The notes below the pieces were generated by a model, which saw nothing but the letters and a program-made list of their open reading frames with translations, ran no database searches and was not told the origin of the DNA. Of a stretch of 54,722 bases of DNA, positions 7,290-13,342 are shown piece by piece. The position numbers were made by a program, and so were the translations under genes. The DNA is from Lachnospiraceae bacterium (GTDB taxonomy: Bacteria > Bacillota > Clostridia > Lachnospirales > Lachnospiraceae), in NCBI GenBank assembly GCA_024690825.1, contig JAILOK010000116.1, positions 1 through 54,722 of the forward strand, in the 5' to 3' direction. The stretch's first letter is position 1. Each line of letters starts with the position of its first letter.

Positions 7290-8762
7290 TCAGTCGGTCG
7301 TGTCGTTTACCGTGCAGTTTTTCTGTGTCACCTTGCGGTTTGAGAACTGATTGTACTGATTGTCTTCAAAGAGACATTTCGTGAAGGTGACATCCGAATA
7401 TTCAGAAAGATCCACAAAACAGGTGTTGGTATAATCGGGGTTAATCCTGTTGTTTTTGAAGGTGCAGTCTTCAAAACCTATCCCGCTTCCGTTCTGGACG
7501 CAGATCATGCTCATATCTTTGCTGTCGCGGAAGGTGCAGTTTTTGAAATTCATTTCGGAAGAGTTGTATATATCGAGGAGTCCGTAGGTGCACTCATAGA
7601 TCTCGCTGTCTTTCACTTCGACATGATCGGTATCGTGAAATTCGATCCCGTAGGTTCCGCAGCCGTAAAGAGAGCATTTGTCCACCTTAATGCCGGAGGA
7701 TCCGTCAAAGCCGATCACGCTTCCGGAGCAGTAACCGGGCTCCACTTCGTGGCCGCAGGTAAGACCTCTTAAAGTCAGATTGTTTGAATATCTGAAATAC
7801 ATGACCGGATCATAGGCTTCCTCGGTACAGATGAGAACTTTTCCGTCTTTTTCCGCTTCGATGCAGAAATTTGAAAGATCGGAGATCGTGTATGTGATAT
7901 ATCCGTTTTCAATCTCATCCGCGCCCAGCAGATGCTTTTTGTGGTCATCATCGATCCGTCTTTTGTCGAGCTTTGAAAAGTTATAGGTGCCGCTCTTCAA
8001 TATGACTTTCTTATTATTGTCCATATTGTTTATGAGTTCCTCAAGAGATGATACAGTGACCGTTTCAAAATATCTTAATTCTTCTTTGTTCTCCATTTCC
8101 GGAGCATCTTTCCTGAGGTAGACATCGATATTCCTGTAGTAATAATAATCGTCCGTTCCTTTTTTTCCGTCTGTGCTGATCGATACGCCTATGAGCTTTC
8201 CGTCATTAAGGAGGGTATATTTTTTTCCTTCGCCTTCTTTTTCAAACGGGTCGGAAAATTCCAGATACCAGTCTTTATTTTCACAGCCCTCATAGGCGGC
8301 ACCGTCTTTTTTTATCAGCTCCGTACCCAGATATTTTAAGGTGCTTTCATAGCCGTCATAAAGGAAGTCGGCGATGATCTTACCATCCTTTTTTTCGATA
8401 TTTAACTCGGAAGAGGCACTGTAAGGGTCATCCGCCATGGTACAGCTGTCATAAGGCTCGGAATCCGAACCGTATTCCGAATGTGAAAGCGTATATGCCA
8501 TTTCCCACTTCCCTTCAATGTCATCTGCGCTGCCGGTCTTTTTTCCGGCCTCTTTTTCTCCGTCTTTTCCGGTGGTCTCATCGGCAGGTTTTTCCGCACC
8601 GGAATCCGGAACCGGTTCTTTTTCCGAAGCAGACTCTTCCGCCGCGGCTGCTTCTTTTTCGGGTTCGTTTTTGCTGCCCCCGCAACCGGCAAGAAGACAC
8701 AAACTTAAGATAACGGATAATAGAGAGCACAGTATTCGCTTAATAAGAACATTTTTTTTCAT
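7290..8762 (-). CDS. Predicted lipoprotein with right-handed beta-helix domain
   Basis: 490 residues. The signal peptide is lysine-rich then hydrophobic and ends in the lipobox LLAGC (Cys ~26), predicting a lipid-anchored surface protein. A low-complexity linker rich in E, A, K and P spans about residues 30-78. A beta-rich domain follows to about residue 225. From about residue 290 the sequence is a series of short strands with inward hydrophobics (for example LTLRGLTCG, IKVDKCSLYGCGTYGIEF, MNFKNCTFRDS, IGFEDCTFKNN), characteristic of a parallel beta-helix of the pectate-lyase/NosD type. Such folds often bind or cut polysaccharides, but no catalytic residues are recognisable. The ribosome site GAGGTGA precedes the ATG. 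No partner gene is evident. Confidence 0.75.
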   Translation of the reverse strand: MKKNVLIKRILCSLLSVILSLCLLAGCGGSKNEPEKEAAAAEESASEKEPVPDSGAEKPADETTGKDGEKEAGKKTGSADDIEGKWEMAYTLSHSEYGSDSEPYDSCTMADDPYSASSELNIEKKDGKIIADFLYDGYESTLKYLGTELIKKDGAAYEGCENKDWYLEFSDPFEKEGEGKKYTLLNDGKLIGVSISTDGKKGTDDYYYYRNIDVYLRKDAPEMENKEELRYFETVTVSSLEELINNMDNNKKVILKSGTYNFSKLDKRRIDDDHKKHLLGADEIENGYITYTISDLSNFCIEAEKDGKVLICTEEAYDPVMYFRYSNNLTLRGLTCGHEVEPGYCSGSVIGFDGSSGIKVDKCSLYGCGTYGIEFHDTDHVEVKDSEIYECTYGLLDIYNSSEMNFKNCTFRDSKDMSMICVQNGSGIGFEDCTFKNNRINPDYTNTCFVDLSEYSDVTFTKCLFEDNQYNQFSNRKVTQKNCTVNDTTD

Positions 8763-9007
8763 GCAGTCACCTCGTATGATTGAAAAGTACCTTTTGACCC
8801 TTACATCATAATCATAAACTGCACCCTGGTCAAATGAACCGGATATACATAAAAAATGACCGAATAATCAAAAACAAGAAGATACATCTTTCTCTTCCAT
8901 GTATAATTATTTTTATGTCAGGGTTAAAAAGTACAAATCCGATTTCGCCTGCGAAAAGAGAATTTGGAACTTGCGACCTGCAAAATATATAAGAGAAAGT
9001 GGATCAC

Positions 9008-9493
9008 ATGCGGGATAATATTGATATCGAAGTAATAATCGATGAAAAATACACAGAGCCAAAGATCACCATCCAGACAAAGGAAAGGACCGGACAGGTA
9101 GAAAACATCATATATGCCATAGAAAACGCCTCCGAAAGTGATTTTCCGCCTGTCACAGCTTACGAGGGAAAGGATAAACTCACTGTCATCTGTCAGAGAG
9201 ATATAATCAGAGCCTACACATCCGGCCGAAAAGTCATTATACAGACCGAAACAGGCGTTTATACTGTAAAAAAGACTCTGTCGGGCCTTGACGAAGAGCT
9301 GAATTCCGGGCGCTTCTTAAAGATATCCCAGTCGGAGATAATAAACCTCTACAAGGTGAAATGCTTTGACATCAACACGGCGGGAACGATCGGCGTGGAA
9401 TTTGAAAACGGCATAAAATCCTGGGTTTCAAGAAGCCGTGTAAAGGCCATAAAGGATCTTCTGACAGGAAGAAAGGAGGAGTCCGATGAATAA
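9008..9493 (+). CDS. LytTR-family DNA-binding regulator
   Basis: 161 residues from the ATG at 9008; a GTG at 8999 is an alternative start and neither has a strong ribosome site. The N-terminal ~60 residues are a small variable domain. Residues ~65-155 match LytTR: RDIIRAYTSGRKVIIQTETG, FLKISQSEIINLYKV and VEFENGIKSWVSRSRVKAI. There is no receiver domain, so this is the stand-alone LytTR type. These are usually paired with a small membrane protein of the DUF3021 family, exactly as here, with an 8-base overlap between the genes. Family knowledge suggests the membrane partner controls the regulator's activity. The preceding 236-base gap holds a short palindrome (TTTCGC-CT-GCGAAA near 8942-8955) and TATAAT at 8902-8907. 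Confidence 0.8.
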   Translation: MRDNIDIEVIIDEKYTEPKITIQTKERTGQVENIIYAIENASESDFPPVTAYEGKDKLTVICQRDIIRAYTSGRKVIIQTETGVYTVKKTLSGLDEELNSGRFLKISQSEIINLYKVKCFDINTAGTIGVEFENGIKSWVSRSRVKAIKDLLTGRKEESDE

Positions 9494-9974
9494 AACCTTT
9501 TCGCAAAAAGTTATCTTTCTTTCATCCATCGGCTTTTCTGCAGGCATGCTCTTCGGAGTGATGCTCACCGCAATTCTTTCCACAGCAAACGCGGGAGACG
9601 GAAGACTGTATGTCTGTGCGCCCGGATTCCTCGAATCCATAGGAAATCCCATTCTTGCGCTCTTTCTTGAGATGACCGTTTCGGGCCTTTTAGGGGCGTT
9701 CTGTACCGGACTTTCGGCTGTCTACTCTATCGAAGAGTGGAGCCCGTTAAAAGCTACCCTGATCCATTATATTCTGTCCATGACCGCTTATTACTGCGCA
9801 GCTTTCTTTCTTCGCTGGCTTTCACCGAAAAATATACGGTACTGCATTCTCTGGTTTTTCCTGGTAACGGCCGGATATGCCATGATCTGGGTAATCGGTT
9901 ATATCGCTGACAGGAAGGAGATATCACGGTTAAACAAAGAACTGAATGTCTGGAAAAGCGGCAAAGTACAGTAA
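9486..9974 (+). CDS. DUF3021 family membrane protein
   Basis: 162 residues with four hydrophobic segments: about 10-30 (FLSSIGFSAGMLFGVMLTAI), 52-76 (ILALFLEMTVSGLLGAF), 91-111 (IHYILSMTAYYCAAFFL) and 121-140 (ILWFFLVTAGYAMIWVIGYI), followed by a basic cytoplasmic tail. Size, four-helix layout and linkage to a LytTR regulator fit DUF3021. Its start overlaps the end of the LytTR gene by eight bases and carries the ribosome site AAGGAGG inside that gene. The pair probably forms a membrane-anchored regulatory module. Whether it acts on the flagellin gene 184 bases downstream is unknown. Confidence 0.8.
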   Translation: MNKTFSQKVIFLSSIGFSAGMLFGVMLTAILSTANAGDGRLYVCAPGFLESIGNPILALFLEMTVSGLLGAFCTGLSAVYSIEEWSPLKATLIHYILSMTAYYCAAFFLRWLSPKNIRYCILWFFLVTAGYAMIWVIGYIADRKEISRLNKELNVWKSGKVQ

Positions 9975-10027
9975 AGATCAGCTCTTTTCACCATGGACAT
10001 AAAAAACAACCGAATATACATTTCGCC

Positions 10028-10054
10028 TAAAAAATGTCTGCTTTTGGACGATAT
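10028..10054 (+). promoter_or_regulatory. Sigma-28 (SigD/FliA) promoter of the flagellin gene
   Basis: TAAA at 10028-10031, exactly 15 bases, then GACGATAT at 10047-10054. The consensus is TAAA-N15-GCCGATAA, so six of eight -10 bases match. Predicted transcription starts near 10061, giving a leader of about 98 bases. Confidence 0.75.
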
Positions 10055-10097
10055 ATAGTATGACATACCATTTCAGCCACAAAATTTAGTATAAAAA

Positions 10098-10113
10098 CCG
10101 GCAAGGATGCCGG
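10098..10113 (+). promoter_or_regulatory. Putative CsrA binding hairpin (site 1) in the flagellin leader
   Basis: CCGGC-AAGGAT-GCCGG forms a 5-bp stem with GGA in a hexaloop. The core GCAAGGATGC fits the CsrA high-affinity pattern (CA-N-GGA-N-G in a loop). It resembles the upstream site known in the Bacillus hag leader. The call is based on pattern matching only. Confidence 0.6.
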
Positions 10114-10143
10114 AAAAACGAATCTTTGACATTCATAACGGAT

Positions 10144-10153
10144 ACACGGAGGT
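10144..10153 (+). promoter_or_regulatory. Putative CsrA site 2 overlapping the flagellin ribosome binding site
   Basis: ACACGGAGGT matches the CsrA consensus ACANGGANGT at every defined position, and its GGAGGT is the Shine-Dalgarno sequence of the flagellin start at 10159. Occupancy here would block translation. The two GGA cores are 43 bases apart. Confidence 0.6.
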
Positions 10154-10158
10154 TAGTC

Positions 10159-12195
10159 ATGAATGTAGCTGCTCATAACCTTATAGCATTAAACTCCAGA
10201 AGAGTATATGGGGAAAACTGGGCCACCCAGTCAAAATCCATGGAGAAGCTGTCTTCCGGTTACAAGATCAACCGGGCGGCAGATGATGCTGCAGGTCTTT
10301 CCATTTCCGAAAAAATGCGAAGACAGATCCGCGGACTGTCACAGGCAAGGGATAACGTTCAGGACGGTATCTCCATGGTTCAGACTGCCGACGGAGCCTT
10401 AGAAGAAGTTCATGACATGCTTCAGCGCGGCAATGAACTTATGATCAAAGCTGCAAACGGCACTCTGTCCGACAGCGACAGGGAAAGCATTTATATGGAG
10501 ATCGAACAGCTGAGGGATGCCATTGACGGGGTGGCTTTGAGTACAAGATTTAATGAGATCGATCTGTTTCCGCCTGCGGGTGCAAGTCCTGAAAGCGCAA
10601 ACATCATATCTTCAAGAAAATATTCGCTTGATTTTAACAGCAGCGGTGTCAGCAGGGTATCCTACGGATCGGGTGAGATCGGAGTCGGCAGTCCTTCCGC
10701 TGTAAACACCGGAAATCTGCTTGCTGACAAGATCGCTTATGAATATGTGCCCAATGCCGTAAACCAGATCTTTTCCAAAATCCCGTCACTTTCAAGCGCC
10801 ATTAATTCCATGTATACGGGAAGCAATGCGGATAAGCTGAAGATGAATCTTGATATAAAGTATCTGGACGGACCAAGCGGGACACTTGCCCGGGTATCCG
10901 GTTCCTTTTATACAAACAACCAGGAGCTTGCCAGTATGAAGCTTGAGGTTGACAGTTCCGATTTTTCGGAAGAGGACATAACGGGAAACAGTCCAAAGCT
11001 CGGCAGGCTCGAATCCACGATAGGACACGAAATGATGCATGCCCTGATGGATGCTGCCATGCCTTCAAGGATGTACGGAAACGGGGGAGCCGAGGATTTT
11101 CCGCTATGGTTCGTGGAAGGCACTGCCCAGCTGACAGGAGGGGGTTATACCACCGGATGGAATGAATATCTGCAGACGGCTTTATCTTCGGGCAAAACGG
11201 ATTCCGAGATCTCGGCTCTTTTAAAGGAGCGTACGGTTGAATCCAATGTATACGGACACGGATATCTTGCAGCGGCCTGGTTAGGACACCTTGCATCAGG
11301 CCAGTCATCCGTGACTGCGCAGAGCATAGCGTCCGGTATCAACAAGATCTTCCAGAGGCTTATCAGTAATCCTTCGGAGAGTCTGGAAGCTGCCGTAAAC
11401 CATGTGCTTCCTTCGGGAACGCTTCAGGGCGTGATAAATGATATCAATAACGGCAGCGCAAACGCTGTTGACTTTGTAAAAAAGCTGACACAGGCCACGA
11501 ACGGAAACGGCGCGGGATCCATAATCGCTTCCGGCGGTCTTTCGGCCACAGGCGTAAATGTGCTTGGAACTTCCTCGACGACGGCAAAGGTATATATTGA
11601 TCCGGAACATATAACGGCTCCCGCAGGGAGCGGAGGCTCAGGCGGCTCGGGAGGTTCAGGAGGGTCAGGAGGGTCCGGTGGTTCGGGTGGATCCGGAGGT
11701 TCAGGCGGCTCGGGCGGCGGCATACCTGCGGCCTCGGGATACCCGGGGACCAGTATTCAGGCAGGTGCCGACAGCGATCTTTCGAACCGTATTTCGCTTA
11801 AGCTCTTTCGTATGACTTCGAAGGATCTTGGCATAGCAGATATCGGAGTGTCCGATACTTCTTCCAAAACGGCAGACGAGGGCATATCCGTGCAGGCACA
11901 TGAGAGCCTCACCATGGAGGAAGCCGAAAGAGGCATAGATGCGTTTAAGAAGGCAATAGAACTTGTAAGCGGTGTCCGCAGTTATTATGGCGCCGTGCAG
12001 AACCGCATGGAACACACGATCGCCAATCTTGAAAATGTCATTGAAAATACCACATCCGCGGAATCACGCATCCGCGATACGGATATGGCAAAGGAAATGG
12101 TAAAGATGTCCATCGGAAAGATACTGCTTCAGGCCGGACAGGCGATGATGGCCCAGGCCAACCATTCAAATGAATGGATCCTCGGTCTGGTATGA
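10159..12195 (+). CDS. fliC: Flagellin with inserted gluzincin metallopeptidase domain (flagellinolysin type)
   Basis: 678 residues from the ATG at 10159, set by GGAGGT at 10148-10153; the upstream ATG at 10126 lacks a ribosome site. Residues 1-~140 are the flagellin N-terminal D0/D1 (MNVAAHNLIALNSRRV, MEKLSSGYKINRAADDAAGL). The ~110 C-terminal residues are the matching D1/D0 half (TTSAESRIRDTDMAKEMVKM). The hypervariable region holds a protease: HEMMH at 290-294 is HExxH, and Glu320 in WFVEGTAQ lies 26 residues later, the gluzincin zinc site. Flagellinolysins are an established family in which such a domain makes the filament surface proteolytic. A linker of GS(GGS)9GGG (GGS units at residues 492-518) joins the protease to the C-terminal half. 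A terminator follows. No other flagellar gene is in the window. Confidence 0.93.
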   Translation: MNVAAHNLIALNSRRVYGENWATQSKSMEKLSSGYKINRAADDAAGLSISEKMRRQIRGLSQARDNVQDGISMVQTADGALEEVHDMLQRGNELMIKAANGTLSDSDRESIYMEIEQLRDAIDGVALSTRFNEIDLFPPAGASPESANIISSRKYSLDFNSSGVSRVSYGSGEIGVGSPSAVNTGNLLADKIAYEYVPNAVNQIFSKIPSLSSAINSMYTGSNADKLKMNLDIKYLDGPSGTLARVSGSFYTNNQELASMKLEVDSSDFSEEDITGNSPKLGRLESTIGHEMMHALMDAAMPSRMYGNGGAEDFPLWFVEGTAQLTGGGYTTGWNEYLQTALSSGKTDSEISALLKERTVESNVYGHGYLAAAWLGHLASGQSSVTAQSIASGINKIFQRLISNPSESLEAAVNHVLPSGTLQGVINDINNGSANAVDFVKKLTQATNGNGAGSIIASGGLSATGVNVLGTSSTTAKVYIDPEHITAPAGSGGSGGSGGSGGSGGSGGSGGSGGSGGSGGGIPAASGYPGTSIQAGADSDLSNRISLKLFRMTSKDLGIADIGVSDTSSKTADEGISVQAHESLTMEEAERGIDAFKKAIELVSGVRSYYGAVQNRMEHTIANLENVIENTTSAESRIRDTDMAKEMVKMSIGKILLQAGQAMMAQANHSNEWILGLV

Positions 12196-12292: not shown

Positions 12293-13342
12293 TCAGGCAT
12301 TTAATGCCAGGTCCAGATGCTGGATCGTTCCTGCTTCTCCGGTGCTTTCATGAAGAAAGATGCCGGTCGATCTTATCACGCCGTTTCTTTTGAAATCACT
12401 GCCCATTAATGTAAAATCATTTTTTGCAGACTTAAGGAAGATCGCGCCTATATCCGCCTTCTTCAGATCCATCAGTATATCTTCACCGTGATCTCCCTTA
12501 CACCAGACTTTAAGTTTTGAAAAAATCTCATCGTTTTCATCTATCCATCCGTTTTCGTCAAGATCATATTTTGAAAGATCCGAAAAACCGTCACCGCTCT
12601 TTGTTCCGAAAAGTTCGCCTCCGTTGTTTATTATACCGTCGTCATTTAAGTCAAGTGCCAGAAAACCCGATCCCTTCCCGGGCATGGATATCTCATCTTT
12701 CTTTCCATCCGAATCGATGTCAAAGAAGAATTTCTGGTCGGTGAGATCAGTTATTCCTCCGTTCATGTTTATAACAAGCGGATCACAGAGCGCGTCAGTG
12801 ACCGATGAGGTATTGATGCTCATATATTCCATGTAGCTCCTGCTCATCTCGATCCCGATATTAAAATCGATCTTTCTGCCGTCCTCCGTAACTGCCTGTC
12901 CCCTTGCCTGAAAGGATGTTTCTTCATACTCTTCATATGAAGTAAACTGCTGCATGCCAAAACCTGTCATACCCGATGGTGACCCGTAGTTTATCCCGGA
13001 GACCGTCCTTCCGGCAATACCCGCAAGCATAAGTCTCTTTATAAGCAGATAAAGCAGGCCGTACTGAAATTTTGACGCCTGTGTTTCACCTCTTATCTCT
13101 CCTTTTGATACTCTGCTGTAGGTCATCATGCAGAAACAGTTTTCTTCCGTCATGTTTCCTGTTCTGGAAAAAGAGTCACGATTCCGGTCTTTTGTTCCGA
13201 TCTCCTGATCACTTCCGAAATTAAGCGCGTTTTTTATGCTTTCAAATGAACCCTTCTCTGACCCGGAAGAAAACAGTCTTTTTCCCGACTGGTAATAGTT
13301 TCTTTCTGACTGCATAGCAATGCTGTCGTGTGCAATCTTCAT
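12293..13342 (-). CDS. Protein with EF-hand/dockerin-like calcium-binding loops, convergent with flagellin
   Basis: 349 residues, no signal peptide. The C-terminal half has three aspartate-rich loops: DIDSDGKKDEIS, LDLNDDGIINNGGELFG and YDLDENGWIDENDEIF. These fit Ca2+-binding DxDxDG-type loops. Between them GGELFGTKSGDGFSDLSKYD is a motif seen in a bacterial family often annotated only as hypothetical or hemolysin-type calcium-binding. The N-terminal half is polar and serine-rich, without recognised domains. The start is supported by GGAAGGAGTAA on the minus strand. It is convergent with the flagellin gene, and a link to flagellum or filament-protease function is suggested only by position. 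Confidence 0.6.
   Translation of the reverse strand: MKIAHDSIAMQSERNYYQSGKRLFSSGSEKGSFESIKNALNFGSDQEIGTKDRNRDSFSRTGNMTEENCFCMMTYSRVSKGEIRGETQASKFQYGLLYLLIKRLMLAGIAGRTVSGINYGSPSGMTGFGMQQFTSYEEYEETSFQARGQAVTEDGRKIDFNIGIEMSRSYMEYMSINTSSVTDALCDPLVINMNGGITDLTDQKFFFDIDSDGKKDEISMPGKGSGFLALDLNDDGIINNGGELFGTKSGDGFSDLSKYDLDENGWIDENDEIFSKLKVWCKGDHGEDILMDLKKADIGAIFLKSAKNDFTLMGSDFKRNGVIRSTGIFLHESTGEAGTIQHLDLALNA

Follow-up and report, generated by a model that had tools for sequence, protein, structure and literature searches.

A flagellinolysin gene in a Lachnospiraceae bacterium and a repeat element, shared with an adjacent LytTR/DUF3021 gene pair, that suggests switched expression

The window, by which we mean the whole 54,722-nucleotide stretch analysed here (Lachnospiraceae bacterium, assembly GCA_024690825.1, contig JAILOK010000116.1), contains a gene in which a metallopeptidase-like zinc site is framed by the two ends of a flagellin. 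This arrangement raises the question of whether the product is a proteolytic flagellin and what would govern its production. The features of the locus are collected in Table 1. Comparisons with published systems draw on excerpts of the papers cited.

Table 1. Features of the flagellinolysin locus, in window coordinates
Feature	Position	Strand	Basis
9-12-9 direct repeat ACCGGATAT-12-ACCGAATAA upstream of LytTR gene	8838..8867	+	layout as in PMC6193735 (excerpt)
LytTR transcription regulator, 164 aa	8999..9493	+	Pfam LytTR E 1.2e-19, residues 60-155
DUF3021 membrane protein, 162 aa	9486..9974	+	Pfam E 8e-21; 8-base frame overlap with LytTR gene
Candidate element upstream of flagellinolysin: weak half TCACCATGG, 12 bases, ACCGAATAT (10009-10017)	9988..10017	+	lies past DUF3021 stop codon
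Promoter-like TAAA-15-GACGATAT, sigma-28-like	10028..10055	+	pattern search
Flagellinolysin (proteolytic flagellin), 678 aa	10159..12195	+	translation, Pfam, NCBIfam
Flagellin N-terminal helical region, residues 6-137	10174..10569	+	Pfam PF00669 (Flagellin_N) E 5.4e-41
Inserted gluzincin-type peptidase domain, about residues 186-470	10714..11568	+	predicted model; alignment A3
Asp265, likely calcium-site acid	10951..10953	+	D in 51/52 rows; site described in PMC5595980 (excerpt)
HEMMH (HExxH), residues 290-294: zinc ligands His290 and His294, general base Glu291	11026..11040	+	roles by homology
WFVEGTA, residues 317-323: third zinc ligand Glu320, 'basement' Ala323	11107..11127	+	roles by homology, PMC5595980 (excerpt)
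YGHGY, residues 365-369, conserved motif past glutamate helix	11251..11265	+	Y365, G366 and G368 in 52/52 rows
Gly-Gly-Ser linker, residues 490-521, from peptidase to C-terminal core	11626..11721	+	translation; model
Flagellin C-terminal helical region, residues 594-675	11938..12183	+	Pfam PF00700 (Flagellin_C) E 3.1e-22

Translation of positions 10159-12192 gave 678 residues without a stop. Both the Flagellin_N and the Flagellin_C match exceeded their Pfam cut-offs, in agreement with a preliminary description of the locus that had called both flagellin ends intact. The NCBIfam flagellinolysin profile NF033876 aligned with residues 113-610 over profile positions 3-384 of 384 (E 8.5e-58); its score of 196.6 bits is 8.4 bits below the curated cut-off of 205, though the match is full-length, and this cut-off is an annotation threshold and not a biological trait. 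The cut-off was exceeded in four of 397 family genomes, and a genome of the same genus (G380) scored 256.4. Judged by sequence, the two end matches together with the full-length profile match are far beyond a chance HExxH. The protein is thus very probably a flagellinolysin with a collagenase-like zinc peptidase placed in the flagellin surface region. By the same profile evidence it is a further member of an already described family, reported in 2017 (PMC5595980), of which the enzymes from Clostridium haemolyticum (PMC5595980) and Hylemonella gracilis (PMC7643111) are active in print; the earlier characterization of flagellinolysins as established but rarely studied agrees with this literature, in which the term flagellinolysin occurs in six papers. 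Membership in the collagenase family Peptidase_M9 itself was rejected (Pfam E 0.18, 11.5 bits against a cut-off of 26).

A close comparison is FliA(H) of C. haemolyticum (PMC5595980), which likewise has flagellin N- and C-terminal ends with the peptidase in the hypervariable region and shares, compared without pairwise alignment, the HExxH motif, the third-ligand glutamate, the basement alanine and a conserved acid before HExxH. The window protein differs in its long Gly-Gly-Ser linker and its gene in having LytTR and DUF3021 neighbours. The C. haemolyticum gene lies inside a flagellar cluster (PMC7643111), whereas none was seen around the window gene: among 26 window genes compared with Pfam at varying E limits, a set that leaves aside other window genes including a large polymerase gene, the flagellinolysin alone matched a flagellar family. 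The H. gracilis flagellinolysin is alike in architecture and in lying among non-flagellar genes, but these encode a NUDIX hydrolase, a MarR-type regulator and others (PMC7643111) in place of the regulatory pair found here. A comparison of positions 10500-11700 with 72,556 plasmids, bearing on a plasmid origin, returned zero matches. The linker is a near-perfect natural Gly-Gly-Ser stretch encoded by a 9-base repeat that has diverged (76% matches). It is absent from the related loci L037, L038 and L039, and among 52 aligned rows long Gly/Ser/Thr runs at the linker position occur in the window protein and in L095, L096 and L108.

As described for the family (PMC5595980), the flagellinolysin site combines the two histidines and the general-base glutamate of HExxH with a third-ligand glutamate, a basement alanine and an acid belonging to a calcium site. 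Re-reading of positions from the translation placed HExxH at residues 290-294 and the further glutamate, Glu320, in WFVEGTAQ, 26 residues after His294 and in an EGxA context, as had been noted earlier, and the zinc-site residues named for the family were all found, which bears out the preliminary statement that every visible catalytic residue is kept. Asp265 probably corresponds to Asp206 in FliA(H) of C. haemolyticum, as its position suggests: it stands 25 residues ahead of His290, against a gap of 27 calculated from residue numbers in FliA(H). In an alignment of 52 rows, W317, E320, G321, A323, Y365, G366 and G368 were invariant, as was HExxH. To enter it, a locus had to have HExxH and the flagellin landmarks, start at a usable codon and stay below 800 aa (51 of 80 loci), and the collection scan had used both motifs as patterns, so that this conservation is partly by construction. 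On the strength of the conserved residues and the two characterised relatives, His290, His294 and Glu320 would hold zinc outside the cell and Glu291 would activate water, leading to peptide cleavage.

A catalytically dead domain that gives the filament a surface for binding or shielding is highly improbable, given that every zinc-site residue listed in PMC5595980 is there and that, even allowing for the selection of rows, W317, E320, G321, A323 and Y365 are identical throughout. In its favour, activity of the window protein is a prediction and the motif is altered in some relatives, such as L074, which has HGLMH in a shortened frame.

In structure prediction the full-length model reached a mean pLDDT of 79.0 (pTM 0.52) and the peptidase-only model 91.1 (pTM 0.91). 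Helix 279-300 of the full-length model carries HExxH and helix 316-327 carries Glu320, with three strands before them; this is the order seen in gluzincins, and the prediction is confident around His290, His294 and Glu320. Residues 490-527, which include the Gly-Gly-Ser stretch, fell below a pLDDT of 50. The best PDB match of the full-length model was a Roseburia hominis flagellar filament (E 7.8e-8). A Foldseek search of the PDB with the peptidase model gave zero matches at E <= 0.001. Its top row was leishmanolysin (E 0.19, probability 0.82) and its second an aminopeptidase N family protein (E 0.22), both of which belong to the zinc metallopeptidases, and collagenase was absent from the best 50 of 65 rows. 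A profile of 14 regions searched against the PDB did find the clostridial collagenase ColH (E 4e-4), aligned across HExxH and the third-ligand glutamate. The ColH peptidase domain (family M9) thus resembles the window protein in its HExxH...EG.A zinc site; the window protein differs in its flagellin ends and in the lack of a significant Peptidase_M9 match. A single-sequence phmmer search of the PDB was set aside, its top rows falling on the Gly-Ser linker end.

Flagellinolysins recur among Lachnospiraceae. NF033876 gave 22 matches at E <= 1e-20 in 20 of the 397 genomes drawn, and 19 of these matches held HExxH within a frame longer than 220 aa. The 19 include L026, whose match contains a stop at another point, and three without flagellin ends (L032, L035 and L036); L021 and L033, with internal stops, fall outside, as does L022, seemingly the same gene as L074 (HGLMH, 534-residue frame). 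Within the genus, the peptidase region was found at E <= 1e-30 in 13 of 48 genomes. A scan of named genomes yielded at least 189 confirmed loci, the best 80 of which were taken further; their titles mostly read Lachnospiraceae, the remainder including Butyrivibrio, Roseburia and Eubacterium, and many come from rumen or gut. By profiles built for this analysis, 71 of these 80 loci have both flagellin ends. The nearest named relative among the loci listed is from a Lachnospiraceae bacterium of water buffalo rumen (70% identity over the aligned protein), and such kin suggest that the window, too, comes from a rumen bacterium.

Several relatives depart from the standard architecture. The same type of peptidase occurs in L032, L035 and L036 in secreted-looking proteins; a type I dockerin (E 2e-10) is present in one of them, L032. 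This protein stands among flagellin forms in the tree, where L035 and L036 pair on long branches with unsure placement; these non-flagellin proteins bear on the origin of the flagellin insert. Flagellinolysin frames of about 960 to more than 1800 residues were seen in L028, L030, L034, L110, L112 and L116, and in the first three the extra stretch sits between the peptidase and the C-terminal core. L142 has two divergent neighbouring flagellinolysin frames, at about 7624-9396 (minus strand, 630 aa) and 9796-11610 (plus strand, 639 aa), both with HELMH and WFIEGTA.

The make-up of the filament depends on the other flagellins of the genome. Flagellin_N gave seven matches, the flagellinolysin included. 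Three are HExxH-free flagellins: C61 (271 aa), C25 (cut at a contig end) and C28 (474 aa), identical to the flagellinolysin in the N-terminal core at 84 of 134, 91 of 131 and 54 of 130 aligned residues, respectively. Of the rest, C22 and C137 resemble FlgL by reading, and C95 is short and flagellin-like. A FliD_N match above cut-off suggests a capped flagellum. The search proposed earlier for a second, protease-free flagellin is therefore positive three times over. C. haemolyticum is similar, with a protease-free flagellin in the same cell and protease subunits making up at most 10% of its filament (PMC5595980). With three protease-free flagellins in the genome, a filament of both kinds of subunit is more probable than one of protease subunits only, and by the C. 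haemolyticum analogy together with these flagellins the protease is probably a minority subunit here. The earlier picture of the filament as a multivalent protease is supported as far as a protease subunit is concerned and becomes less likely as far as it implied a filament of nothing else. The flagellinolysin would be exported through the flagellar channel and built in beside ordinary flagellins by way of its intact core helices. A second flagellinolysin in the same genome was considered and rejected, since the seven remaining NF033876 matches come from three ordinary flagellins and from a fragment on contig C101. This fragment (L013, positions 1-441) is a stand-alone HExxH...EG piece at the contig start with a weak match to the flagellinolysin profile.

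How the gene is switched on was approached from its upstream region. The pattern TAAA-15-GACGATAT, built on the sigma-28 consensus, occurs three times in the window against 0.21 expected, the other sites being 4365 and 38692. The strict sigma-28 pattern was found upstream in 8 of 50 relatives against 5 of 843 controls. A looser GCCGATAT-like -10 core within 300 bases upstream outperformed it, with 32 of 50 relatives against 85 of 1696 control stretches. Among the ordinary flagellins of the genome, CCGATAT stands upstream of C61 and C25, and none was seen for C28. On the basis of the window pattern, the -10 core in relatives and CCGATAT at C61 and C25, the flagellinolysin gene fits the flagellar sigma-28 set as far as promoter sequence can indicate. 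The same promoter also reads as a -35 TAAAAA and a -10 GATATA placed 10 bases past the candidate repeat element. An ordinary flagellinolysin, transcribed by the flagellar sigma factor only and lying by chance beside the LytTR and DUF3021 genes, with a shared 20-base sequence that does not control it, would agree with the sigma-28-like promoter and with the core in relatives; we regard this as somewhat unlikely in view of the comparisons of the element below.

The two genes upstream are predicted to make up a LytTR regulatory system (LRS), that is, a LytTR regulator with a membrane inhibitor, DUF3021 being named among the inhibitors (PMC6193735). In such systems two 9-base repeats, mostly 12 bases apart, precede the -35 of the operon by about 10 bases (PMC6193735), and the membrane protein is described, with reference to other work, as keeping the regulator at the membrane (PMC13384398). 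The window pair shows these features: a LytTR protein in which a receiver domain was not found (LytTR was the sole Pfam match at E <= 1, and the NCBIfam response regulator LytR matched weakly and partially at the LytTR end, with 39.5 bits against 375), a membrane gene directly downstream, and 9-12-9 repeats about 10 bases before the -35. Following 8838-8867 there are 10 bases, GAAGAT and then TATAAT at 8902-8907, the -35 and -10 being assigned by eye. The genome has one DUF3021 match and three LytTR matches. The HdrRM and BrsRM systems (PMC6193735) are alike in the receiver-less LytTR, the membrane gene directly downstream and the spacing of the repeats; they differ in their half-repeats, which in these and related systems are mostly ACCNCTTAN against ACCGAATAN in the window, and in that the second window element precedes a flagellin gene. 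A second LytTR-like pair, ACCTCGTAT-11-ACCTTTTGA, lies at 8769-8797 beside the start of a divergent beta-helix gene, and it outscores the 8838 pair with the published repeats.

The element ahead of the flagellinolysin resembles the one ahead of the LytTR gene. It contains ACATAAAAAACA-ACCGAATAT at 9997-10017, 10 bases ahead of TAAAAA, and the two window 20-mers have 18 of 20 bases in common, a score unmatched in 300 dinucleotide shuffles. A 20-base pattern written from these two sites occurs exactly at both of them, upstream of the LytTR gene and the flagellinolysin only, in the 2.95 Mb genome, the next best site having two mismatches; up to three mismatches there were five matches against one with the reversed control. 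The similarity of the two sites and their exclusiveness, within the limit that the pattern derives from both, argue against a chance neighbour under the flagellar sigma factor only. That account gains from a motif made of the published repeats, which under letter shuffles did not pick out the flagellinolysin site (P 0.7), where the first half-repeat is weak. Upstream of the LytTR gene none of 200 shuffles reached the score of the same motif; the pair picked there was that of 8769, not that of 8838. It also gains from the distribution of the regulator: by tblastn, the window LytTR had a neighbouring relative at 3 of 101 flagellinolysin loci, all in one small clade, flanks being short at many loci.

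Conservation of the element in relatives speaks again for control by the LytTR regulator. Five of them carry, ahead of the flagellinolysin, an element laid out in the same way: TTCATTTAA-12-ACCGAATAG in L037, TCCACTTAG-12-ACCGAATAG in L038 and L039, and ACCAAATAG-12-ACCGAATGT in L040 and L041, each lying, by reading, about 10 bases before what appears to be a -35-like hexamer. Because L038/L039 and L040/L041 are near-copies, this amounts to about four independent lineages including the window, or about three further ones. The window and L037-L041 fall in one clade (100/99) with L042 and L044, which have short frames (376 and 312 aa) and no such element. LytTR and DUF3021 genes are adjacent in L037, L040 and L041, where the LytTR gene is divergent and the intergenic stretch is common to both genes; beside L038 and L039, on short contigs, neither was found. 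Upstream of the flagellinolysin, the published-repeat motif gave P values of 0.505 (L037), 0.145 (L040, where a different pair scores first), 0.14 (L041), 0.015 (L038) and 0.03 (L039), and facing the LytTR gene 0.49 (L037), 0.93 (L040) and 0.98 (L041). When the two promoter stretches of a locus were compared with each other, shuffles equalled the observed score in 0 of 300 cases for the window, L040 and L037, the best match in L037 being a different inverted repeat, and gave 0.07 for L041.

These divergent loci, and the two further LytTR proteins of the genome, also leave room for an element that is bound by another regulator or that serves the LytTR gene only where the genes diverge. We consider this unlikely. 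In the window both genes run in the same direction and the element lies past the DUF3021 stop codon; each of the two genes in L037, L040 and L041 is faced by a readable pair, with a regular expression written after looking; and in L038 and L039 the element remains where no LytTR gene was found beside it.

With the shared element and its conservation as the grounds, transcription of the flagellinolysin is probably LytTR-dependent and restrained by DUF3021 through the direct-repeat element upstream of the promoter, a reading we hold with fair but limited confidence. The LytTR regulator would act on the element just upstream of the flagellinolysin promoter, and the DUF3021 membrane protein would restrain the regulator until release.

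Sister genomes extend the picture. In six genomes of the genus the 20-base pattern gave 30 matches up to three mismatches, against five with the reversed control, and downstream genes were inspected at 17 of the 30. Among the matches are the promoters of the flagellinolysin genes in G411, G405 and G409; the flagellinolysin elements of G439 and G404, with four mismatches each, were missed. Exact twin repeats stand at the LytTR promoters of G398 and G439 (LytTR proteins 64% and 60% identical to that of the window), and in G439 the LytTR gene is followed by a small membrane-type protein. Another match in G405 faces a secreted-looking protein. In G398, elements (L190, L210, L211 and L199) face genes that by reading are for short GG-leader peptides, exporter-like and HPt-like, a possible LytTR regulon of bacteriocin type, and further matches face small membrane and transposase-like proteins, also named by reading. 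Two matches had no gene found and a few are chance-like. A DUF3021 relative (E <= 1e-10) was present in 12 of 48 genus genomes; seven of these are among the 13 with a flagellinolysin, adjacent to it in four. At this threshold DUF3021 was not found in six of the 13, one of which, G439, has the LytTR gene with its membrane-type neighbour. Eight further pair regions were fetched, including L178, L181 and L182; a scan of L178 and L181 with TIGR03796 found an NHLP bacteriocin exporter, above cut-off, no more than about 5 kb from the LytTR/DUF3021 pair in each, and a frame in L182 begins like the L181 exporter frame. In the remaining five regions, outside that scan, no exporter was noted.

The biological function of flagellinolysins was called unclear in 2020 (PMC7643111), and the 2017 discussion lists possible roles (PMC5595980). 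LytTR regulatory systems drive bacteriocins in S. mutans (PMC6193735), and the H. gracilis enzyme cleaves flagellins of another species (PMC7643111). From these two reports and the exporters near sister pairs, we tentatively propose that a proteolytic flagellin has been recruited into an LRS regulon, so that the protease would be armed for competition upon DUF3021 release and not for routine nutrition. With some of the element tests weak, the locus suggests a proteolytic flagellin that would be turned on in the manner of a weapon for competition.

Neither the LytTR/DUF3021 pair nor the promoter element shared by the two sites figured in the preliminary description. A link between an LRS and a flagellin was not found in the open-licence literature: the main text of PMC6193735 has no word beginning 'flagell', and the available parts of PMC6193735, PMC13384398, PMC2914790 and PMC5320581 contain no such link. 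If true, this would be the first LRS link to flagellin as far as that literature shows. The two-gene switch and its mapped element offer a handle by which the signal and the co-regulated genes could be found, making the purpose of a protease filament testable.

Past the flagellinolysin, at 12293-13342 on the minus strand, the window encodes a 348-residue protein with calcium-loop-like stretches that matched no Pfam family above cut-off, and a relative of this protein (65%) also lies near the L037 flagellinolysin.
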